Below, piece after piece: positions 6,849 through 29,847 of a stretch of DNA of 33,432 nucleotides. The translations under genes were made by a program, and so were the position numbers. Under the pieces are notes generated by a model. That model saw nothing but the letters and a program-made list of their open reading frames with translations. It was not told where the DNA came from and did not search any database. This DNA comes from an uncultured Acidimicrobiales bacterium (lineage in GTDB: Bacteria > Actinomycetota > Acidimicrobiia > Acidimicrobiales > SHLQ01). Position 1 is the first letter of the stretch; each line of letters begins with the position of its first letter. The stretch is taken from contig CALGZB010000164.1 in the NCBI GenBank assembly GCA_937934655.1, positions 1 through 33,432 of the forward strand. The letters run 5' to 3'.

Positions 6849-9800
6849 GTGAATTTTCGATTCGCTCGTCTACAAACCCTCGGAGCCTTTGTCTCCCTTG
6901 CGTTGTTGTTGGCTCTTGTCCCCTTGGTTCGCCAGGCCGATGCTCAGCAGCAGAATGAGATCATTCTGTCGGTGAATTATGACGGGTTGCAGCCCAACGG
7001 CGATGCGCCGTTTGCTGCGAATCTTGATGGTGTTCATACGCCTGGTCAGGATGAGAACCAGAACAATAATGTTGTTCTAACCAACGACCTGATTGGTTAC
7101 CGAATCGACTGGAACGTGAACGAGATCGACGGCACCGCCGTTGCCATCACTGCCACGTTGCCCGAAGGCATGAGTTGGGTCGTTGACCCATCGACCAGCT
7201 TCGGTGCACCCGCTGGTTGTGTCGACGACGGAACGTCGACTATCGACACCAACGATGGCCGAGACCTGGTGTGCATGCTCGATTCAGAGTTCGAAGGCTC
7301 CAACGGTGTGATCAACCCGGCGGCCAATGTCGGCTCGCAGTTCGATGCAACCTCACTGACCTTGCAGGCCGGCATCGGCACTACCGAGGCCCCCCCTGTT
7401 CTTTCAAACACGGTTGAGACATTCGCTTCAGCTCGCCCAAAGGCCGACTGGGTCAAGGGGAAAGACGTGTTGGCGGGAGATCCAGCGGTCATCGTTTCGC
7501 AACAGCCGTCCGAAGAGATGCACGGAGTCGTCGACCCGGTCTCGGGTGAGGTTGGCCGTATCTGGTTGTACCCACTTCGTCTTAAGCCTGTCGGCGGAAT
7601 CGTTGGTGCTGAGAAGATGGATGACTCCAAAGACATCGTCTTCTATGACCATGCCTATGAGATGCCAGATAACGCTGCGCTGGCCACCGGATTCGTTCCG
7701 GCAACCGCCTCGGGCGCTGCTCGAACCGCATGTGGGCCGTACGACGGCATCAGTAGCTTCGCGGTCGGCTCGACCGGCACATGGACTTGTACCTTGGATG
7801 CCGCTGCAACTGCAGCAAACGGTTACCCGGTTGTTGAAATTACTATCTCCGGTCACGACACCAGCGTCCCGCCCGCACTCAAGGGTGACGGTTCGGCAAA
7901 CACCAGCGAACTTCTCGTTGGCCAGATCGCTTTCTTTGTCCCCGAAGCCTCCTTCGTAAGTTTCCCTGAAGACATCTACAACGGCATCTCTGGCACCACC
8001 GATCAGGTGATCGCTCCAACCGACCTCGACCCGATTCAGGTATGGGGCTCGGCGCCGACCAGCTTCGATGAAGCTGGCGTCGTCAACAACTACGCCTACT
8101 GGAACGCCGACGAGACGCCAACTAGTGGCTCACCAGGTCGGTCATTCCGCCACGTCATTCAGTACTCCGATGGCCCCTACCAAGAGGTCTCCAAGACCAC
8201 ACCTGATGGCCGGATCTACCGCGGCGCTGATATGCGTACGAAGGCGAAGGGCGGGCTCGGACGTGTTGCAACCAACACGCTGAACGCAACTGGATTTGGT
8301 TGGGGACATGGCATTTCCGGCCCGATGTCGCAGATCACACCTCGCGGCAACGAAATGGTTATTACTGCCGAGCTCGACCACACTCAGACAGCCCCGGCCG
8401 ATCCGTATTACTACGAAGCATCGGCACTCTGTGTGGCAATCGACAACACGCACCAGGAACTCGTGGCTCTCCCCGCGCAGTTCGATGTAAACCACTTGGA
8501 GTCCACAAGCAACCCGTACATTTGGGGAAACCAGGATCACGATTCCACAACGCAGGAGTCGTCGAACACCGGCCCGCTTGCGCAGGTTCAGGTGGGCGCT
8601 CACCCGAACTTCCCGTACCACGTCTATAGCTACACGCATGCGGTCGAAACGACACTTGTCGATATTCCGTACGTCGTCGAATTCGGATCTGCGGTCAACC
8701 CGGTCGACAACAGCGTGACAATGCACGAAGTCACCTGTAACAACGCTGATGTTGATGCACGCGGTTGGGTTGACTCAGCTGCAGACCTCTCGGTATTCGA
8801 CCCGAACGGTGACGGCCGATACGAAGACATCACTAACGTTCGTCTCCGGGTCACAGGCCCTATGGCGTGGGTTGGAACCGAACCAAACCCCCGAGGAACC
8901 GCATCCTCCGCGACGTGGGGAACCTCGGTAAACCTCAACCTCCAGGTACGTATTAAAGATGACCCACTGGTCAACGAAGCCGATATGGAGTTGTTTGCCT
9001 ATGCATCGCGTGCGTACACCCCGTCGCCACTTCCACACACTCCGGAGGACGTCGTGATCTGGGATCCGGAAACTATGGTGAACCCGGGAACGCCCACATG
9101 TACCCAGACCACCGTCGGTATCTTCAGAGACCACTTCGGTGATGACTTCGACCACAACTCGACCGTTCCGAATGGTTGGTGCAACTTACCATTTGAAGAT
9201 GACGGCGCTGACTCTTTTGACCTCACCGACAACCCCCACGACTTTGGTGGCGGCGGAGAGAACGCCTACGAGTACCAAGGCAACAGCACTGCCAGCTACA
9301 CCGGTAAGTACCCTCGAGCCGTACACGCCGACAAGGTGACCATTGTTGAAGCCGAACTTTCGATCAGCAAGGTAAACCTTGCTGGCCCGAATGATGTGAA
9401 TGCCAATGGCGACCTCGTTGAGTTTGAGGTCAAGCCCGGCGTCGTCGGCTCGAGTCTCGACACGCTGTCGGACATCACGCTCACCGATACTTTGCCTGCG
9501 AACTACGAGTTTGTGCAGTTCACCCAGCTTCCTACGACTACCACCAACAGCAACGCAACCACGCCTCCAAACAATGACGGCACGGCACTTGTTGCTCCGG
9601 TTTGCGCCATCACCGGACAGGTCATCAGTTGTGACTTCGGCACCCAGGTGGGCGGCTGGAGCGACGTGCTCCGCTACGAGGTACGTCTTATCGATGCTGG
9701 TCCGAACGCCACCATCACCAACACGGTGAAACTAAACGGCAACGACGCCCTTTCGGGTCTCGCAAAGACCCAGAAGTCAGCAAGCGCAAAGTCCTTCACC

Positions 9801-12800
9801 GGCGATGCGTTTGTTGAGGCCGGTATCCTCAAGATGGTCGACCGTCACGTTGGCCCTTGCGGTACCTACCCCGGTGCCGGTTCGGCTCCCGACGATTGGG
9901 CAACCGATTGTTCAGTGATTGTCGCTGATGGCAACATTCGCTACTCGCTTGAGCTTGCCAACCAGGGCTTCGCGGAGCTCGACAACTTCCGAGTTGTCGA
10001 TGTTCTTCCTCATCGTGATGATGAGGCTGAAATTGCGTCGACCACCCTCACGGGTGACGGCCGCACTCCCGAGTCGGACTTCAACGGCACGATCGAACTG
10101 GTAGCGGCTTCCGGTACCGGAACGGTCCTGTACTCGATGGACGCCGCAACCTCGATCAGTCGTGACCCCGATGCGTCGGAGCTTGCCAACACTTGGTGTG
10201 ACGCTCCCGCAGGCGGTACAGCAGTGTTCGGTGCGGGCCCATGCCCGGCCAGCAACGCCGACATCACCGCCGTCTACGTCGATGTCGGAACGCTCCCTTT
10301 CCCTGGGTCGCAGTTCCTTACTATCGACCTCGCAACCTCCGGTAACGAATGCGACGACGTGTACACCAACAGCTTTGGTGCCCGTACCGACGACATTCTT
10401 CTTCCGATCCGTTCGAATGACGTGACCGCAATGGTCGGATTCTGTGAACCTGGCGTCGACATTGAGAAGGACACCAACGGCGTCCAAGCCGACAACATCG
10501 ACGAAGACACCAACGACAATGGTGTGCTCGACGATGGCGAAGACACCAATGACGTCAACGGCGTTCTTGACTTCGCTGCCCCTGTTGGCAGCAACGTCGG
10601 CCCCGGCGTTCCAATCGGTGGCGACATCACCTGGACCTACGTGGTCACCAACGGCGACGTTGCCCTCATCAACGCAGTTGTTGACGATAGCGACCCTGCG
10701 GTAACGCCAGACTGCGACATCGACGGTGACGGAGCCTTTGATGGCACCAACATCATCCCGGTTCTGCTCCCCGGCGCCGAGATCACGTGTCAGGCAACTG
10801 GCATCGCTGTCGCTGGCCAATATGCCAACGACTCGTCGATTTCCGGAACGCCAGTGGTACCGACTGCGGTCGATCCTTCGATCGATGCGTCGAACCCAGC
10901 TACCTGGCCACAGGGCGATTCCAACTTCGACCCAACCGATGAATCCACCTGGCCACTTGATCCAGCCATCAACATGGCCGATCCGACCACCTGGCCCACC
11001 GATCCTGCCGACTATGGCGCACCAACCGACCCGGTAACCGGCGGTCCCGTGTTCCCCGTCACCCTCGACGATTCAGACCCATCGCATTACTGGGGTCTGC
11101 CAAATGACGTTGCGGTAGGAATCGAAAAGGCAACCAACGGCGACGATGCCGACACCACCGCTGGTCCCGCAGTTCCTGTTGGCGGCGACGTCACGTGGAC
11201 CTATGTGGTTACCAACTCTGGCCAGCTTCCAATCACCCCGGCCACCGTGGCTGACTCCGATCCGGCGCTCGCCGTGGTTTGTGAGCCTTCACTCGGTGAC
11301 GCTGGCGGCGACGCAGTGATCGATATCTTCCTTCCGGGAGAATCGGTTACCTGTACCGCAACCGGAATCGCCACTGCCGGCAACTATGCCAACACGGCAA
11401 CCGTGTCTGGCCCGACCAGCCTTCCCGCTGTGTCTTGTGTTTGTGATCCAACCGATCCCGCCACCTGGCCAACCGACATGGCTGACCTCAGCCCCAACGT
11501 CGACCCAGTCACTGGCGAACCGATCGAGGTTGAAGACACCGACGACAGCCACTACCACGGTGCTGCACCGGCGATCGATATCGAAAAGGACACCAATGGT
11601 GTTCAGTCCGATGACGCTCCTGGCGAAGAGATCGTGGCTGGCTCGACCGTCACGTGGACCTATGAGGTTATCAACACCGGAACCACCGCTATAGCCAACG
11701 CAACGGTCAACGATGACCAGGGTGTCATCGTCGACTGTGATGTCGATGGGGATGGTGTTCTTGATGGCACCAACGTGATCCCGTTTATGGCAGTGGGCGA
11801 TTCGGTTACCTGTGAAGGAACCGGAACCGCAGTTGTTGGTGCCTATACCAACAACGCAACCGTCTACGGCGCACCAATGGTCCCCGACTTCGATACCTGC
11901 GACTGTGACCCCGAAGACGCAACAACCTGGCCGACCGACCCGGCCGACTACGGCGAACTGTTGAACCCGGACGGCACTCCGGCCGCCGCGCTCACCGCCG
12001 AAGACCCGTCCAACTACACCGGTATCACCGACCCGGGTGCAGCCATCGGTATCGAGAAAGCCACCAACGGCGTCGATAGCGACGAAGCGCCGGGCGAAAG
12101 CCTGATCATTGGTTCTGTGGTTACGTGGACCTATGAAGTAGCCAACACCGGAACGACAGCACTCACCGATGCTGCGGTAAGCGATGACCAAGGTGTCGTC
12201 GTTGACTGTGATGTTGATGGTGATGGCGTCTTGGACGGAACGAACGTGATTCCGTTGATGCTTCCGGGCGATTCGGTCACCTGTGAAGGAACCGGCATTG
12301 CGGTTGCTGGTGGCTACACCAACAACGCATCGGTTACCGGTTTCCCTGCGGTTCCTGACTTCGGAACATGTGCATGCGATCCGGGCGACTCGGCCACCTG
12401 GCCGACCGACCCTGCGGCATTCCAGCCAGCACTTGGCGAAGACGGACTCTCACTTGCCGAGGTAGCCGCTGAAGACCCATCCAACTACACCGGAACCGCT
12501 TCAGGAACCCCGGCCATCGATATCGAGAAAGCCACCAACGGCGCCGATAGCGACGAGGCTCCTGGAGAACAAATCCCCGCCGGTGACGATGTCACGTGGA
12601 CCTACGTGGTCGTGAACTCCGGAACAACGGCTCTTGCCGATGCGACGGTTTCCGATGACCAAGGTGTCACTGTTGACTGTGATGTTGATGGCGATGGTGT
12701 TCTTGATGGCACCAACGTGATTCCGCTCATGCTTCCTGGTGACTCTGTTACCTGTGAAGGAACCGGAACCGCCGTTGGCGGTCTCTACACCAACAACGCA

Positions 12801-13415
12801 ACCGTGTCGGGCGATCCGATCATGCCCGACTTCGGAACGTGCGACTGCGACCCAAGCGACCCAGCCACCTGGCCAACCGATGTTGTCGAGTTCTCGGCAG
12901 CGATTGGTGACGACGGTGAGCCAATGGCCGCTGTAACCGACGCCGACCCATCGAACTACACCGGAACCCAGAAGATCTCCGGTCTGGTTTGGGACGACAA
13001 GAACGGTGACGGCGTCTTCGACAGCGACGAAGTCACTCACGCAGGCATCGTCGTAGAACTCCTCGACGCCGACGGCAACCCAGTGCTTGACGCTGATGGC
13101 AACCCCATCACGACACTCACCAATGCCGACGGAACCTACGAGTTCGACGTCGTCCCTGGTGACTACAAGCTGGCGTTTACCGCACCAGCCGGAGTCGACT
13201 TCACCACACCGGGAACCATCGATGTCAACGTCCAAGCCGGCATTGATGTACCAAACCTCAATGCTGGTCTCAACGCTGGCGCTACAACCCCGGCCTTGGC
13301 ATTCTCCGGTTCCGAATCAACACCATTGGCAACCTTTGCCCTGGTCATGATTCTCGCCGGCCTTGCCCTGATGCTGATCAGCCGCCGCCGTTTCCGCTCG
13401 AGCGACAACAGCTAA
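6849..13415 (+). CDS. Giant repeat-containing surface protein with LAFSG sorting-like tail
   Basis: This 2188-residue exported protein starts at GTG 6849, with GGAG at 6837-6840. Residues 1-32 form a signal peptide with a probable cut near ADAQ. Residues 33-830 are beta-rich, contain many paired cysteines and resemble no domain I can name. From about 840 comes a DUF11-like segment (AELSISKVNLAG), then a second one near 990-1200. Five Ig-like DUF7507-type repeats begin near 1202, 1423, 1576, 1733 and 1889, each opening with IEKxTNG and carrying a DxDGDGxxDGTNxIP calcium-type loop. Repeats end in acidic linkers with DPxTWPTDxxD. A SdrD/Cna-B-like domain (ISGLVWDDKNGDGVFDSDE) starts near 2043. 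LAFSG at 2150-2154, a membrane segment and an SRRRFR tail follow, as in sortase substrates. It is probably a wall-anchored, Ca-stiffened stalk or adhesin. No sortase lies nearby. Confidence 0.85.
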   Translation: MNFRFARLQTLGAFVSLALLLALVPLVRQADAQQQNEIILSVNYDGLQPNGDAPFAANLDGVHTPGQDENQNNNVVLTNDLIGYRIDWNVNEIDGTAVAITATLPEGMSWVVDPSTSFGAPAGCVDDGTSTIDTNDGRDLVCMLDSEFEGSNGVINPAANVGSQFDATSLTLQAGIGTTEAPPVLSNTVETFASARPKADWVKGKDVLAGDPAVIVSQQPSEEMHGVVDPVSGEVGRIWLYPLRLKPVGGIVGAEKMDDSKDIVFYDHAYEMPDNAALATGFVPATASGAARTACGPYDGISSFAVGSTGTWTCTLDAAATAANGYPVVEITISGHDTSVPPALKGDGSANTSELLVGQIAFFVPEASFVSFPEDIYNGISGTTDQVIAPTDLDPIQVWGSAPTSFDEAGVVNNYAYWNADETPTSGSPGRSFRHVIQYSDGPYQEVSKTTPDGRIYRGADMRTKAKGGLGRVATNTLNATGFGWGHGISGPMSQITPRGNEMVITAELDHTQTAPADPYYYEASALCVAIDNTHQELVALPAQFDVNHLESTSNPYIWGNQDHDSTTQESSNTGPLAQVQVGAHPNFPYHVYSYTHAVETTLVDIPYVVEFGSAVNPVDNSVTMHEVTCNNADVDARGWVDSAADLSVFDPNGDGRYEDITNVRLRVTGPMAWVGTEPNPRGTASSATWGTSVNLNLQVRIKDDPLVNEADMELFAYASRAYTPSPLPHTPEDVVIWDPETMVNPGTPTCTQTTVGIFRDHFGDDFDHNSTVPNGWCNLPFEDDGADSFDLTDNPHDFGGGGENAYEYQGNSTASYTGKYPRAVHADKVTIVEAELSISKVNLAGPNDVNANGDLVEFEVKPGVVGSSLDTLSDITLTDTLPANYEFVQFTQLPTTTTNSNATTPPNNDGTALVAPVCAITGQVISCDFGTQVGGWSDVLRYEVRLIDAGPNATITNTVKLNGNDALSGLAKTQKSASAKSFTGDAFVEAGILKMVDRHVGPCGTYPGAGSAPDDWATDCSVIVADGNIRYSLELANQGFAELDNFRVVDVLPHRDDEAEIASTTLTGDGRTPESDFNGTIELVAASGTGTVLYSMDAATSISRDPDASELANTWCDAPAGGTAVFGAGPCPASNADITAVYVDVGTLPFPGSQFLTIDLATSGNECDDVYTNSFGARTDDILLPIRSNDVTAMVGFCEPGVDIEKDTNGVQADNIDEDTNDNGVLDDGEDTNDVNGVLDFAAPVGSNVGPGVPIGGDITWTYVVTNGDVALINAVVDDSDPAVTPDCDIDGDGAFDGTNIIPVLLPGAEITCQATGIAVAGQYANDSSISGTPVVPTAVDPSIDASNPATWPQGDSNFDPTDESTWPLDPAINMADPTTWPTDPADYGAPTDPVTGGPVFPVTLDDSDPSHYWGLPNDVAVGIEKATNGDDADTTAGPAVPVGGDVTWTYVVTNSGQLPITPATVADSDPALAVVCEPSLGDAGGDAVIDIFLPGESVTCTATGIATAGNYANTATVSGPTSLPAVSCVCDPTDPATWPTDMADLSPNVDPVTGEPIEVEDTDDSHYHGAAPAIDIEKDTNGVQSDDAPGEEIVAGSTVTWTYEVINTGTTAIANATVNDDQGVIVDCDVDGDGVLDGTNVIPFMAVGDSVTCEGTGTAVVGAYTNNATVYGAPMVPDFDTCDCDPEDATTWPTDPADYGELLNPDGTPAAALTAEDPSNYTGITDPGAAIGIEKATNGVDSDEAPGESLIIGSVVTWTYEVANTGTTALTDAAVSDDQGVVVDCDVDGDGVLDGTNVIPLMLPGDSVTCEGTGIAVAGGYTNNASVTGFPAVPDFGTCACDPGDSATWPTDPAAFQPALGEDGLSLAEVAAEDPSNYTGTASGTPAIDIEKATNGADSDEAPGEQIPAGDDVTWTYVVVNSGTTALADATVSDDQGVTVDCDVDGDGVLDGTNVIPLMLPGDSVTCEGTGTAVGGLYTNNATVSGDPIMPDFGTCDCDPSDPATWPTDVVEFSAAIGDDGEPMAAVTDADPSNYTGTQKISGLVWDDKNGDGVFDSDEVTHAGIVVELLDADGNPVLDADGNPITTLTNADGTYEFDVVPGDYKLAFTAPAGVDFTTPGTIDVNVQAGIDVPNLNAGLNAGATTPALAFSGSESTPLATFALVMILAGLALMLISRRRFRSSDNS
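10453..12972 (+). repeat. Five in-frame domain repeats within the giant surface protein
   Basis: Five related units begin near 10453, 11116, 11575, 12046 and 12514. The last three are about 470 bp apart and closely similar, while the first two are longer and more diverged. Each encodes an Ig-like domain followed by an acidic linker that contains TWPTD in most units. The pattern indicates recent tandem duplication at the 3' side of the array. Confidence 0.8.
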
Positions 13416-16624: not shown

Positions 16625-17100
16625 GACGTACGCGCTTCGACACCGCGCATTGCCCAGTGGCTCGCACAACCGATCTGCTTGGCGATTGGTGGACACCGCT
16701 CGTGCTGCGTCAACTGTTTGTCGGCGAGCGCCGTTTCGCTCAGATCGCCGAGTCGCTCGACATCAGCCGAGCAATTTTGTCTTCTCGACTCAAGCGTCTC
16801 GAGTCGGAGGGCGTTGTTGCAAAGGTGCAGTACGAAGAGCATCCGCCACGATTTGAATATCACCTGACCGATAAGGGGGTGGCGTTGTGGGATGTCGTAG
16901 CCGCCATGTGGCGATTCGGCGATGACTGGATGTTCGACGAGTCGCCAGGAGCTCAAGTTGTGTTGGTCGACAAGGAAACCCAAAAGCGGGTGCAACCCCA
17001 GATGATCGACGCGAACACCGGCCAGCCACTAACCCTCGCCACCACCAGAGTCCGCCCAAGAACCCAACGAAAGAACCAAGGTGTCAGACCAGTGCTCTGA
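16621..17100 (+). CDS. HxlR family winged-helix regulator
   Basis: The 159-residue protein has the HxlR signature: CPVARTTDLLGDWWTPLVLRQ near residue 11, FAQIAESLDISRAILSSRLKRLE as the DNA-binding helices, then YEEHPPRFEYHLTDKG as the wing. HxlR proteins often respond to electrophiles or redox signals through a cysteine; Cys11 lies at the usual place. It overlaps the molybdopterin oxidoreductase stop codon by four bases and is probably co-transcribed, so it may adjust that operon. The C-terminal tail is longer than typical and basic, and its last five residues and stop codon are encoded by the tandem repeat that begins at 17081. Confidence 0.88.
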   Translation: MRRTRFDTAHCPVARTTDLLGDWWTPLVLRQLFVGERRFAQIAESLDISRAILSSRLKRLESEGVVAKVQYEEHPPRFEYHLTDKGVALWDVVAAMWRFGDDWMFDESPGAQVVLVDKETQKRVQPQMIDANTGQPLTLATTRVRPRTQRKNQGVRPVL

Positions 17101-17163
17101 CACTTGCTCTGACACTTGCTCTGACACTTGCTCTGACACCTGGTCTGGCACTTGCTCTGACAC
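17081..17163. repeat. 12-bp tandem repeat with terminator-like hairpins
   Basis: Six units of the TTGCTCTGACAC type run from 17092 to 17163. Unit 5 (17140-17151) is diverged to CTGGTCTGGCAC. GTGTCAGA (17081-17088) pairs perfectly with TCTGACAC (17096-17103) around a 7-nt loop, and with later units as alternatives. It lies between convergent genes, overlaps the end of the HxlR gene and stops just before the Rieske gene end. Confidence 0.85.
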
Positions 17164-24417: not shown

Positions 24418-26994
24418 CTACGGGGTGAAGGTCGAGCCGCCGCAGTTCATGCCCGTGTAGTGAACGCCTCGATCAGATGAGCTCTGGTCTTTCCAGTAGC
24501 TGACTCGCACGTTTCCACAAGCGGACGGCACGTTGTCGACGAACGGACCTTCCTTGCTTGGGTCGCCCCAGTTGACGAACTGAGCATCGACGGAACACTC
24601 GCCGTTGTAGTCACAGGCCTTGATATCCATCTCGGTGCCGAGGAATGCTCCACGGAAGCGGACATTGCCGCTATCGACTCGGAGGCCGACGGAAACGTTT
24701 TCGATTGTTGTCCGGGTGATGGAAGCTTCGGTGGTGGGTTGACGAAGGTCGATGGCCACAGTCTTGGTGTCACGGATCAGCGTGTTGTAAATCCTGATGG
24801 TCGCCGTCTTGTCTTCGGCGCCCTTCTGGTCGGCGATTGCGTGGCGAGCGTACGCAATCTCGGTGTTGTTGGCCTGGAAGACGCCACCGGGGCTTACCCA
24901 GACAGCAGTGCGGTAGCCGACCTTCTCAGGCTTGGCTTTGTCGCCGTCGCCGTTCGAGTCGCCACCGTAGGAGTCATCGACGGCCGAGGTGATAATGATC
25001 GGGTTCTTCGTGCTGCCGTTCAGGTATGCCCGTCCGGTTTCGGCAACGTGGAGGCCGGCCTGACGTTCGTTGGAGCTGACCTTGACGATCGAGCCCGGCT
25101 GAATCACCACGGTGCCTTCGGTGATGAGGGAGCGGTTGTGCTCAAGGGTGAGGACCGCACCAGCGTCGGGAGCGAACACGAACGAACGGTTCTTCGGGAG
25201 CTTTGCGCCACCCATCCAGAGCTGCTTGCCCGACTCTTCGCCAACGAAGGTGTTTTTGGCGTTGCCCTCGGTGTAGAAGTTCTCGGGCGAGTTTCCGGTG
25301 GTGAACCGTACGCCGCCGAGACGGTTGTCTTTGAAGGTGCTGCGGTAGATCTGTGCGGCAATCGGAGCCTTGTTGACATGGATGCCGAAGAAATCGTTTT
25401 GTTCGAAGAGGCTGTAGCCGACTCGCAACTTGGCGGTGGTTTCGCTTTCGCCACGTTCGCCGGCGATGCCGTTCTTGCCGTACTTCGAGATGATGTAGTC
25501 AACGGTTACTGATGAGCCAGGCTGCAGGCGGATAGCTACTTCGTAGGCCCCTTTTCGGGGAGCCGTTGCGTCTCCATCGAGGTTGGTATCGCCACCGGCG
25601 GTGTCATCGAGGACCGAGGTGAGGATGATGGGGCTCTTGCTTTGACCCTGAAAGGCCACCGAGCTGCCGGTGCGGGCAGTGATGGCCGACTCCACACCAG
25701 CGGTGCTGATCTTGATGATCGAGCCAGCCTGAACGGTGAGCTTGCCGTCGACAAGAAGTGACTTTTCTTTCTCGAGTGTGAGGATTGCGCCACGGCTTGG
25801 ACCAAAGGTCCAGCCTTGCTTGGCCGGGACTTCGACGTTGGCCAGGTAGACCTGGCGAGCAGCGGGAGTGCCCTTGAAGTAGTTGCCTGCTTGGCCGTTG
25901 ACGCCGAAGCCGGTGATGGACGCCAGGTCAGCGAACCGGGCAGCGCCGATGCGGTTCTCGACGAAGGCGGTGCGGGTGATGGTGGCGTAGCTCTGGGGCT
26001 CGTCGAAGTTGACGCCGAGGTAGAAGCTGTTCTGGATCGTGCTGTTTGTAAGTTCGAGTTTTGCCGAGTTCTTCGAGGTGGTGGAACCGATATCGCCCAG
26101 GCCGACGGCTGCGTAATCGATCAGGATTCGGTCGAGGGCTACAGCGGCTCCGGGACTGAGGGTGATTGGGGTTCCGTAGCGGCCTGGACGCAGGGTGCTT
26201 GAGGAACGATCACCATTGGTGTCGCCGCCACGAGCGTCGTCGTAGTTCGAGGTGAAGATAACCGGGCTGTTGCGTCCGCCCTTTGCCACCAGCTGGGCGC
26301 CGTCGCCGACGATGATTCCTGCGCCGGTTGGCTGCGGTTCGAATTTCACGATGGCGCCGGCTTCGATGCTGAGTCGGGTCTTGCCGTTGACGTTGACCGG
26401 GCAGCTCACGACATGGACGGTGCTGGCCGACCAGGTCTCGTTGGCGTTGATGTCGCCGCAGTGGGTGGTCCAGGTTTGTCCGTCGGGTGTCTGGTCGCTC
26501 GATGTCGAGCCAAGTCCGAGGGTGACGTCATAGGTAAAGCGTCCGCCGCAGGCCAGCTCGTCGGATTCGTTGTAGCCATCTTTGCAGTCGAAGCGAGGGT
26601 TGAAGCTGCCGGTCGAGAGCACAGCGGGCGACTCGGTCTCGTAGATGACGCCGTCGACGGTGATGTGATCGACGCGGATGCCCCGGTCGGTCGATGCCAT
26701 GTCGTTGCCGTAGGCCACGGCAATGTCACCGGAAATGTCGCCGGCAATATCACTGGCATTGTCGCTAGCAAGGCTGCCGTCGACCGTGGCGGTGTAGGTC
26801 GCCCAGTCGGTAGTGAGGTCGAAGGTGGCGACGGTCGTGCTTCCGACGATCAGGTGTATCTGCTCGACACCGCCTTGGCCTTTTGCCCGGACCTCGACTT
26901 CAGTCTGCGTGGAGTTCGCATTCGCTGCGGTCGCGAAAAACGCAAACCCAAGACTCGTTAGTAGAAGGAAAAAAACGCCGCGCCTCGTTGTCAT
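24418..26994 (-). CDS. Secreted CBM60-like, beta-helix repeat protein (copy 2)
   Basis: The protein has 858 residues. Residues 1-27 are a signal peptide (cut after AANA). Residues 31-121 resemble a CBM60-type Ca-dependent carbohydrate-binding module (EVEVRAKGQGG, AYGNDMASTDRGIRVDHITVDG). A Cys-containing bridge (137-199) precedes a right-handed beta-helix made of three repeats of about 210 residues that start near 243, 454 and 664. Each opens with SPVIFTS-like sequence and a DDxxGGDTNxDG calcium-type loop. A C-terminal Cys domain (ACDYNGEC, NWGDP, ACGN, MNCGG) closes it. No catalytic residues of a known lyase or hydrolase are evident. It is probably an extracellular polysaccharide-binding protein or unrecognised glycan enzyme. 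It is paralogous to the gene at 27122 with the same domain order, and 127 bp lie between them. Confidence 0.85.
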   Translation of the reverse strand: MTTRRGVFFLLLTSLGFAFFATAANANSTQTEVEVRAKGQGGVEQIHLIVGSTTVATFDLTTDWATYTATVDGSLASDNASDIAGDISGDIAVAYGNDMASTDRGIRVDHITVDGVIYETESPAVLSTGSFNPRFDCKDGYNESDELACGGRFTYDVTLGLGSTSSDQTPDGQTWTTHCGDINANETWSASTVHVVSCPVNVNGKTRLSIEAGAIVKFEPQPTGAGIIVGDGAQLVAKGGRNSPVIFTSNYDDARGGDTNGDRSSSTLRPGRYGTPITLSPGAAVALDRILIDYAAVGLGDIGSTTSKNSAKLELTNSTIQNSFYLGVNFDEPQSYATITRTAFVENRIGAARFADLASITGFGVNGQAGNYFKGTPAARQVYLANVEVPAKQGWTFGPSRGAILTLEKEKSLLVDGKLTVQAGSIIKISTAGVESAITARTGSSVAFQGQSKSPIILTSVLDDTAGGDTNLDGDATAPRKGAYEVAIRLQPGSSVTVDYIISKYGKNGIAGERGESETTAKLRVGYSLFEQNDFFGIHVNKAPIAAQIYRSTFKDNRLGGVRFTTGNSPENFYTEGNAKNTFVGEESGKQLWMGGAKLPKNRSFVFAPDAGAVLTLEHNRSLITEGTVVIQPGSIVKVSSNERQAGLHVAETGRAYLNGSTKNPIIITSAVDDSYGGDSNGDGDKAKPEKVGYRTAVWVSPGGVFQANNTEIAYARHAIADQKGAEDKTATIRIYNTLIRDTKTVAIDLRQPTTEASITRTTIENVSVGLRVDSGNVRFRGAFLGTEMDIKACDYNGECSVDAQFVNWGDPSKEGPFVDNVPSACGNVRVSYWKDQSSSDRGVHYTGMNCGGSTFTP

Positions 26995-27121
26995 GGCTGA
27001 GGGTTCGACCCGAGGGTCAAAAGTCTTAATCCAAATGAGGCCAACGACCTAGTCCTGGTAGCTGAGCCCTTTCGGTATAACGGTCACCACGTCGTGAGAA
27101 TTATCATCACGAATGTCCTGG

Positions 27122-29689
27122 TCAGGCGGTAGATCCGTCGCAGTTGGTGCGGATGAGGTTGGTGTCGGCGGCGCTTGCTGGTTGGTTTTTCCACTTGCCG
27201 ATTTCGACCTGGCCACAGACCACTGGTTTCCCGTTTGCCTTGAACGGACCGCGGGCGTTGCCCCAGTCCACATATTTGGCGTCGGCGGTGCAGGAGTCGC
27301 CGAAGTCGCAGGCCCGGATGCCCTTGTTGGTATCGAGGATCGAGCCTCGATAGCGAAGCTCACCAGCGGTGATGACGATCCCGGTTGGTGACTCGCTGAT
27401 GGTCGTCCGCTGGAAGGTCGCTTTGGTTGTTTCCTGGTCGAACTGCATCGCAAAGTAACGAGCGTGGTGCACGCTGGCGTTCTTCAGATTGATGACAGCG
27501 GACTTCGAGTTGGTTGCCTTGGCGTCGGCGAGACCGATCCGGCTGTAGCCGATGTCCAGGTTGTCTCCCGTGAGGGTTCCGCCGGAACCAATGGTGACGG
27601 CGGTTCGGTAGTTTCCGGTTTTGGCAGCCGTGGCGTCGCCGTCGCCGTTCGAGTCCCCGACGTGCGCGTCATCGACGACCGAGGTGAACACGATAGGCTT
27701 TGACGAGGTTCCGTCGGTCTCGAGCGTGCCGCCGTTGGCGATGTGGAAGCCGGCTTGGCGAGAGTTGGAGCTGATCTTGGCAACCGTGCCCGCCTTCAAG
27801 GTGGCGTTGCCGAGGATGTTGAAGGACTTCGAGCGTTCGAGCGAGATGCTGCCGCCGGTAGCTGGGTCGAAAGTCCAGGATTGCTTTGCGGGAAGTACGG
27901 CTCCAGCCAGCCAGAGCTGACGGCTTTGTGCGTCGCCCTCGAAGGTGTTGGCGTTCGATCCGTTGGTGATGATGCGAGCCACTGAGCTTTCGGCAGCGAC
28001 CCGAACGCCGCCAAGTCCGTTGTTGCGGAAGGTCGAGGTTGCGATGTTTGCGTCGAATCGGGTCTGGTTGAGTTGGGCTCCGAAGTAGAGGTTTGACTCG
28101 AGGACGCTGTCGGTCAAGACGAGGTGGGCGATGCTTGTGCTGCTGTCGGCGTCGCTTCGTTCTCCGGCGATTCCGTTCTCTCCGAAGCGGATGGTGGTGT
28201 TGGTCGCGGCAACCGACGAGTCGGCGGTTACGGAGATCCCGGTTGCGTAGCTGCCAGCAACTGGGTTGGTGGCGGAGCCGTCGCCGTTGGTATCACCGCC
28301 GACAGAGTCGTCGAGGATCGACGTGATGGTGACTGGAGAGTTGGCGCTTCCGGCTATACGGATTGTGCCGCCAGGGTTGCTGTAGAGGCCGGCGGTTGGT
28401 GATTTGGTTCCGACCTTGATGACCGATCCGGCCTTGGCCGTGAATCGCCCGTCGACGGAGAGCGATCGATCGCCTTCGAGCACGGCAACGGCGCCTCGTT
28501 CTGGACTGAAGACCCAGGCTTGGCCCGAGGGAATTGTTACACCGCTGAGAAGAAGACTTCGGGCGGCGGCGTCACCGCGGAAGGTGTTGCCTGACTTTCC
28601 GGTAACGAGAACCTTGGTGGCGACAACGCCGTCGCCGAGGCGAATGCCGCCGAGTCCGTTGTCGGTGAAGGTTGAGGTTGCGATGATTGGCTGGCTTTGT
28701 GGTTCGTCGAGGTTTACGCCGAGGTAGAGACTGTTCTGAATGTTCGAGTTGGTGAGGGTGAGCTTGGCCGGAGCGGAGTCCTGCGAGCCAAGGTCGCCAA
28801 TGCCGACGGCGGCGTAGTCGATGAGCGCATGCTGAACACGGGTGGTCGAGCCAGGGCTGATGGTGATGGCGGTGCCGTACCTGCCGGGGCGGAGGGTTGA
28901 GCCCGAGCGCGAGCCGTTTGTGTCGCCACCGCGGGCGTCGTCGTAGTTGGACGTAAAGATCACGGGGTTCGCAGCGGTACCGCGAACGTCGAGCGATGCG
29001 CCCGAGGCCACGATGATTCCGGCGCCCGTTTCTTCTGGTTCGTATTTGATGATCGATCCGGCGCTGATGCTGAGGTTTGCGCCGTCGGCGACGGTTACGG
29101 GACACGTCACGACGTGGATGAAGCTTGGTGACCACACCTCGTCGGCTGCGATCTCGCCGCAGTGTTCGACCACGCCTTCGATTGTGGGGTCGATTTCGCC
29201 GCCGTCATCGGATCCACCGACCTGGATGTCAAAGACAAACTGGCCTTGGCACGAGAGGAGTTCGGATCGCTTGAATCCGTCTTTGCAGCCGTCACTTGGG
29301 TTGAAGCTTCCGGTGGAAAGAACGGTCTGTTCTTCGGTTTCTAGCTGGACGCCGTCGACGACGATGTAGTCGACGAAGAGGTTGCGGTCGTACGGAGGCG
29401 CATAAACATCGTTGATAAATCGGATGGCGATGGCCGATGCTTCAGCTGGTGAGTCGAAGGTCGCCGAGTAGGTAGCCAGATCGGGGCCGACGTCCCATTT
29501 CGCTATCGATTGGTCGCCTACTGCGAGTTCCATTCGTTCGTCACCGGTTTGGCCAAGCGCTCGAACCTCGATGGTGTGGGTACCGTCTGACGCTTGGGCT
29601 CCAGCTTGATTGGAAACGAAAAATGAACTGAAAACGGTGCTCAGAATGAGCGATCCGATGAACAGTGAAAACAACCGAGATGAACGCAT
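27122..29689 (-). CDS. Secreted CBM60-like, beta-helix repeat protein (copy 1)
   Basis: The 855-residue protein has a signal peptide of about 32 residues and then a clearer CBM60-type module at 38-119 (IEVRALGQTGDERMELAVG, RFINDVYAPPYDRNLFVDY), in which the ND and DRNL residues match Ca and sugar ligands of that family. A Cys bridge and three beta-helix repeats follow, each opening with a DDxxGGDTNGDG- or DDAHVGDSNGDG-like loop. The C-terminal Cys domain (ACDFGDSC, WGNARGPF, VVCGQ, TNCDG) matches copy 2. The pair looks like a tandem duplication. No transmembrane anchor or sorting signal is present, so it is probably released or held non-covalently. The upstream gap (29690-29847) holds no gene and a 13-bp direct repeat; no strong promoter is seen. 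Confidence 0.85.
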   Translation of the reverse strand: MRSSRLFSLFIGSLILSTVFSSFFVSNQAGAQASDGTHTIEVRALGQTGDERMELAVGDQSIAKWDVGPDLATYSATFDSPAEASAIAIRFINDVYAPPYDRNLFVDYIVVDGVQLETEEQTVLSTGSFNPSDGCKDGFKRSELLSCQGQFVFDIQVGGSDDGGEIDPTIEGVVEHCGEIAADEVWSPSFIHVVTCPVTVADGANLSISAGSIIKYEPEETGAGIIVASGASLDVRGTAANPVIFTSNYDDARGGDTNGSRSGSTLRPGRYGTAITISPGSTTRVQHALIDYAAVGIGDLGSQDSAPAKLTLTNSNIQNSLYLGVNLDEPQSQPIIATSTFTDNGLGGIRLGDGVVATKVLVTGKSGNTFRGDAAARSLLLSGVTIPSGQAWVFSPERGAVAVLEGDRSLSVDGRFTAKAGSVIKVGTKSPTAGLYSNPGGTIRIAGSANSPVTITSILDDSVGGDTNGDGSATNPVAGSYATGISVTADSSVAATNTTIRFGENGIAGERSDADSSTSIAHLVLTDSVLESNLYFGAQLNQTRFDANIATSTFRNNGLGGVRVAAESSVARIITNGSNANTFEGDAQSRQLWLAGAVLPAKQSWTFDPATGGSISLERSKSFNILGNATLKAGTVAKISSNSRQAGFHIANGGTLETDGTSSKPIVFTSVVDDAHVGDSNGDGDATAAKTGNYRTAVTIGSGGTLTGDNLDIGYSRIGLADAKATNSKSAVINLKNASVHHARYFAMQFDQETTKATFQRTTISESPTGIVITAGELRYRGSILDTNKGIRACDFGDSCTADAKYVDWGNARGPFKANGKPVVCGQVEIGKWKNQPASAADTNLIRTNCDGSTA

Positions 29690-29761: not shown

Positions 29762-29800
29762 GCAAAGAATCAGACCAAAGAAACAGAGCAAAGAATCAGA
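29762..29800. repeat. Short direct repeat upstream of copy 1
   Basis: GCAAAGAATCAGA occurs at 29762-29774 and again at 29788-29800 in an A-rich stretch between the beta-helix gene and the acyl-CoA dehydrogenase gene. It may be a regulatory site or the remnant of a tandem repeat. Confidence 0.5.
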
Positions 29801-29847
29801 GCCAAGAACAGGCGACGAGAAACGGGCGACCTGGAGTAGGTGCGTTG

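Follow-up and report, generated by a model that had tools for sequence, protein, structure and literature searches.

The tandem genes and their surroundings

The window analysed here is a stretch of 33,432 nucleotides from an uncultured Acidimicrobiales bacterium (contig CALGZB010000164.1), contained in a 4.7-Mb assembly (G000) whose close relatives are metagenome-assembled genomes of uncultured Acidimicrobiales. Two open reading frames situated side by side on its reverse strand code for proteins A and B (Table 1), and an initial sequence-only reading, which had taken them to be adjacent paralogues, was borne out by an identity of 44% along their length (695 bits). The tandem has on one side a gene for an acyl-CoA dehydrogenase and on the other a gene for a glutaminyl-tRNA synthetase, the latter being named from its sequence. 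A scan for promoters and terminators returned nothing above shuffled controls, and no C-terminal anchor to the cell was visible in the sequence of either protein.

Table 1. Positions in the window of the tandem genes and of the features of their products
Feature	Position	Strand	Description and basis
Protein A	27122..29689	-	855 aa; signal-like N-terminus, CBM60, three beta-helix repeats, Cys cap
A signal-peptide-like N-terminus	29591..29689	-	residues 1-33; judged by eye; disordered in model
A CBM60 module	29210..29587	-	residues 35-160; Pfam 71.2 bits and 2xfd fold match
A beta-helix repeat 1	28499..29176	-	residues 172-397; repeat-to-repeat BLAST and model
A repeat 1 loop DDARGGDTNGSR	28907..28942	-	degenerate copy of DxNxDG-type loop
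A beta-helix repeat 2	27860..28498	-	residues 398-610; repeat-to-repeat BLAST and model
A repeat 2 loop DDSVGGDTNGDG	28277..28312	-	repeat alignment
A beta-helix repeat 3	27335..27859	-	residues 611-785; repeat-to-repeat BLAST and model
A repeat 3 loop DDAHVGDSNGDG	27638..27673	-	repeat alignment
A Cys-bearing C-terminal cap	27125..27334	-	residues 786-855; invariant Cys, related cap in L056; low pLDDT
Protein B	24418..26994	-	858 aa; tandem paralogue of A, identical layout
B CBM60 module	26509..26910	-	residues 29-162; Pfam 40.3 bits; insert with 12-base tandem repeat
B beta-helix repeat 1	25795..26475	-	repeat-to-repeat BLAST
B beta-helix repeat 2	25165..25794	-	repeat-to-repeat BLAST
B beta-helix repeat 3	24640..25164	-	repeat-to-repeat BLAST
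B Cys-bearing C-terminal cap	24421..24639	-	invariant Cys

Elsewhere in the window, a 13-base tandem repeat (GCAAAGAATCAGA, 3.6 copies, 29762-29808) occupies the gap between the gene for A and that for the acyl-CoA dehydrogenase, and a 12-base tandem repeat (TGCTCTGACACT) is present in about six copies at 17093-17163. A large gene at 6849-13415, which contains a 471-base DNA repeat, codes for a 2188-aa protein with DUF7507/DUF11 repeats and an SdrD_B-like domain, terminating in a hydrophobic segment with an RRR tail and bearing a weak LAVTG sortase-motif match.

When the genome collection was scanned for related loci, only two orthologues were returned, both from congeneric Acidimicrobiales. 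Each of three congeneric genomes holds a single copy, the tandem being confined to G000: in G002 and G003 the one A-like gene lies in conserved synteny between the acyl-CoA dehydrogenase and glutaminyl-tRNA synthetase genes, and in G001 it lies elsewhere. Protein A is closest to its G003 orthologue (76% identity), while B shares 44-49% identity with A and with the G003 and G002 proteins, and 38% with that of G001. From these five sequences, the tandem would have arisen either by an old duplication followed by loss elsewhere or by fast divergence of B.

The N-terminal CBM60 module

The PF16841 (CBM60) profile matched the N-terminal modules of both proteins well above its cut-off of 28.2 bits, and phmmer aligned them with the vCBM60 structures 2xfd and 2xhh (E about 5e-7). 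A model of the module from A, built with 77 CBM60 modules from the bacterial family, had a mean pLDDT of 95.4 and superimposed on 2xfd with a Z of 19.0 and an rmsd of 1.4 Å over 109 of 109 residues, the best unrelated match reaching a Z of only 7.7; a Foldseek comparison was in agreement. Both sequence and predicted fold thus confirmed the module as a CBM60, an identification that the sequence-only reading had been prepared to abandon had the CBM60 fold been lacking.

Alignment with 2xfd indicated that its Cys pair and residues E14, N53, D54 and D63 are kept in A and B. The modules differ from vCBM60 in having Phe at the position of the aromatic W84 (Phe or Tyr in their orthologues), a position at which Trp occurs in 45 of the 89 CBM60 modules of the lineage, and in being joined to a beta-helix rather than a xylanase. 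A 12-base tandem repeat at 26718-26771, within the reading frame of the CBM60 of B, corresponds to an insert (approximately ASDIAGDISGD) that is absent from A.

The beta-helix body and its relatives

Downstream of the CBM60, each protein consists principally of three repeats of about 210 residues, as had been noted from the sequence, which matched one another by BLAST with identities of 29-37% (E values of 2e-17 to 5e-39), an internal similarity far beyond chance; 'TSxxDDxxGGDTNGDG'-type loops lie at residues 246, 456 and 669 of A. A full-length model of A, generated from an alignment of five sequences only, exhibited repeating strand coils with pLDDT values mostly of about 80-98 between residue 172 and about residue 770, followed by a poorly modelled cap. 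These coils, together with structural alignments to beta-helix proteins, identified the predicted fold as a right-handed parallel beta-helix. Similar scores (Z 14-19) were recorded against tailspikes, autotransporter passengers, alginate epimerases, polygalacturonases, pectate lyases, NosD and the adhesin PfbA, and because so many unrelated beta-helices scored alike, the comparison established the fold and did not decide the function.

Searches of sequence families were in keeping with the earlier remark that no familiar catalytic domain is present. The Pfam Beta_helix profile (PF13229) scored 22.6 and 20.9 bits, below its gathering score of 25.9, and at E values up to 1 Pfam returned for A and B just CBM60, these sub-threshold matches and others at chance level, with none to the beta-helix polysaccharide enzyme families (pectate lyases, GH28, CE8 and similar). 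NCBIfam gave no match to either protein, and a search of PDB sequences with the helix profile gave zero matches. A plasmid search produced one weak Hymenobacter match (27% identity over 43%), and a viral structure library nothing more specific than generic beta-helices. The AlgE/AlgG mannuronan C5-epimerases and the PL3/PL6 lyases share the fold (Z 14-19 for those among the alignments) but gave no sequence match, and no catalytic signature of theirs was identified. Likewise, for GH141 (XynE, BT1002) the structure 5mqp aligned with the helix over 243 residues (Z 15.2) but was not matched in the PDB sequence search, and we know of no description of internal triplication in GH141.

A sample of 296 genomes from the phylum contained sequence-homologous units of the helix in 14 further genomes, with a DDxxGGDTNGDG-type loop in those that were read. 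They precede a GDSL lipase in L114 and RHS/YD repeats in L116 and L117, partners that differ from the CBM60 of A and B, and judging by these arrangements they are accessory parts in the proteins examined. In L056, an actinomycetote protein that is the same gene as L114, the last beta-helix unit is followed by a cap related to that of A and B. The C-terminal Cys domain was correctly described as conserved, C794, C800, C825 and C850 being unchanged throughout the five orthologous and paralogous proteins, but it is not private to them.

A second CBM60/beta-helix protein of the bacterial family, of 901 aa (L107:1913-4615; G014:C70), combines three CBM60 modules with a different beta-helix (PF13229, 5e-13). 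It was rejected as an orthologue on finding that BLAST did not match its helix significantly to either protein of the tandem, and the pairing of CBM60 with a beta-helix seems, from this comparison, to have arisen more than once.

Conservation of the helix and of its CBM60

Alignment of the three repeats across the five proteins revealed that most of the invariant charged and polar positions of the helix (K, DD, D, N and Y) are common to all three repeats, namely K215/425/638, D250-D251, D256 and N258 with their equivalents, and Y271/481/694. Such residues look like structural or calcium-loop positions as opposed to a single active site. Repeat 1 has additional invariant residues (D299, Y322, D328, E329, R350 and D353), which would constitute the only candidate catalytic site, and a weak one; repeat 3 has an invariant set of its own, with as many invariant charges as repeat 1.

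The relative conservation of modules was then compared between G000 and its relatives G003 and G002, respectively. For A, the CBM60 was 85 and 74% identical to its orthologues and the helix repeats 70-78 and 47-58%. Corresponding values were 91 and 86% for the GSDH partner domains (their own CBM60s 74-84 and 60-70%), 82 and 71% for the apiosidase-like domain of a first pair (80 and 53-67%), 67 and 57% for that of a second pair (69-74 and 46-54%) and, against G003 only, 80% for the GH5 domain (71-78%). There is thus a tendency for a catalytic domain to be at least as well conserved as its CBM60, an order reversed in A, with the exception of the apiosidase-like pair L042/L100, in which it is the CBM60s that show the slightly higher conservation.

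Since most of the invariant polar residues recur in every unit, the helix has diverged more than its CBM60, and homologous helices are accessory in the proteins examined, catalysis by the helix appears unlikely, and the earlier suggestion of an unrecognised lyase or epimerase is not supported.

CBM60 modules throughout the lineage

PF16841 gave 18 module matches in G000, 12-19 in three congeners and 12 in one genome from another genus of the bacterial family, but none in the remaining sampled genomes of the order; among the 295 other genomes of the phylum sample, it was present in one. The G000 set was gathered by searches, and since some matches are pieces at contig ends (C186 and C200 overlap in sequence; C72 and C256 are near-identical) the genes were counted as about ten. 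In G000 the partners of CBM60 are apiosidase-like domains (two), a polysaccharide deacetylase, GH5, GSDH and fn3, alongside CBM60-only proteins, and among the relatives there are also GH16 and additional GSDH, deacetylase and apiosidase-like partners. CBM60 is used lineage-wide on secreted CAZyme-like proteins, and its matches in G000 and relatives (L037-L046, L080-L113) amount to a lineage-specific expansion on several enzyme classes, which is more informative than the combination of CBM60 and beta-helix in A and B.

The largest number of CBM60 modules in one protein was six, in a 1591-aa protein of a relative (L102) that also has two GSDH stretches. In four others (L108, L109, L111 and L112) a long C-terminal region comes after three CBM60 modules; this region is alike in L108 and L111, and Pfam matched nothing but CBM60 in L108.

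Interpretation

On balance, and with moderate confidence, we favour a reading of A and B as secreted, CBM60-anchored, non-catalytic glycan-binding or adhesive beta-helix rods, in which the glycan target, the involvement of calcium, the lack of catalysis and the adhesive or matrix role are what we infer from the features described above. Attachment to a beta-linked polysaccharide would be the task of the CBM60 module, calcium probably taking part as it does in vCBM60. The helix, with its three repeats, would provide a stiff body acting as a spacer, a cross-linker or a second weak binding face, with a DxNxDG-type and probably calcium-binding loop in every repeat, and the Cys-rich cap would seal its C-terminus. 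The polysaccharide adhesin offered as one option by the sequence-only reading fits this interpretation.

A precedent of this kind may be the CBM54 of ChiW from Paenibacillus sp. FPU-7, a right-handed beta-helix of a secreted multimodular carbohydrate-binding protein that resembles lyases, has no detectable activity, and binds chitin, glucan, xylan and cellulose (PMC5132251). Its lyase-like fold thus serves only to bind cell-wall polysaccharides, and A and B might work similarly, a likeness drawn on function and fold. CBM54 differs in being one 12-coil domain, of a protein that also has an SLH anchor and is partnered by GH18, whereas A and B have three repeats and neither SLH nor GH.

Several observations weigh against the favoured reading or sustain its principal alternative, which we regard as unlikely: that the helix represents an undescribed enzyme family (polysaccharide lyase, hydrolase, esterase or epimerase) brought to its substrate by CBM60, repeat 1 containing the active site. 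The want of any anchor to the cell counts against the favoured reading. Most other CBM60-bearing proteins of the lineage, those of G000 included, have catalytic partner domains (GH5, apiosidase-like, polysaccharide deacetylase and GSDH), and the helix could be catalytic by association. Many polysaccharide enzymes have this fold, with mannuronan epimerases (AlgE6, Z 19.1; AlgG, Z 17.3) and tailspikes ranking in the predicted-fold comparison as high as non-enzymes (Z 16-19). The invariant run in repeat 1 is not common to all repeats, and L042/L100 renders the conservation contrast less than uniform. There is also the example of the GH141 xylanase XynE, a beta-helix enzyme adjacent to a CBM6, the catalytic region of which had been recognised just as a Pfam beta-helix before it was assayed (PMC5593877). 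Set against this are the lack of a sequence match to any catalytic family, the internal triplication of a helix that is most strongly conserved at positions recurring in each repeat, its lower conservation relative to its CBM60, the accessory situation of its homologues, and a scanned neighbourhood with no polysaccharide-utilisation genes. Moreover, the repeat-1 residues were picked post hoc from five sequences, and repeat 3 is equally rich in invariant charges. That the triplicated helix founds an undescribed, CBM60-delivered family of polysaccharide-active enzymes with its site at these six residues is in our estimation rather improbable.

A similarly doubtful proposition is that A and B are self-surface or biofilm-matrix proteins, the CBM60 of which binds the wall or exopolysaccharide of the producer and so retains the rod non-covalently on the cell, in place of a sortase or S-layer anchor. 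The about ten secreted CBM60 proteins of G000, some with little else (L038, L039 and L046), the lack of a visible C-terminal anchor, and the DUF11 protein in the window, suggestive of an elaborate surface, would be compatible with such a role. However, the GH5, GH16 and apiosidase-like partner domains would target external polysaccharides, and CBM60s have been described together with xylanase and CE4 modules, as in the Cellvibrio GH11-CBM60-CE4-CBM10 arrangement (PMC8121702). A phage-derived receptor-binding or tailspike-like origin, prompted by the presence of Sf6 and other tailspikes among the top structural alignments, is highly improbable, being already contradicted by the absence of matches in phage records or PHROGs, the signal-like N-terminus and the conserved place between the same two genes in three genomes.

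As CBM60-anchored rods, A and B would be assembled from ordinary parts; a search for papers on CBM60 with a beta-helix, or in Acidimicrobiales, yielded nothing on that combination, and the pairing of CBM60 with a non-enzymatic beta-helix rod was accordingly not found in the literature searched. In this lineage, what looks like an 'address tag' has been placed on about ten proteins of the secretome, among them several enzymes that belong to different classes. Should this tag bind one glycan, its specificity would point to a food source of this uncultured Acidimicrobiales family or to a way of keeping its secretome at the cell, and the proteins that carry it would constitute a natural set for following the adaptation of one CBM family to many partners.
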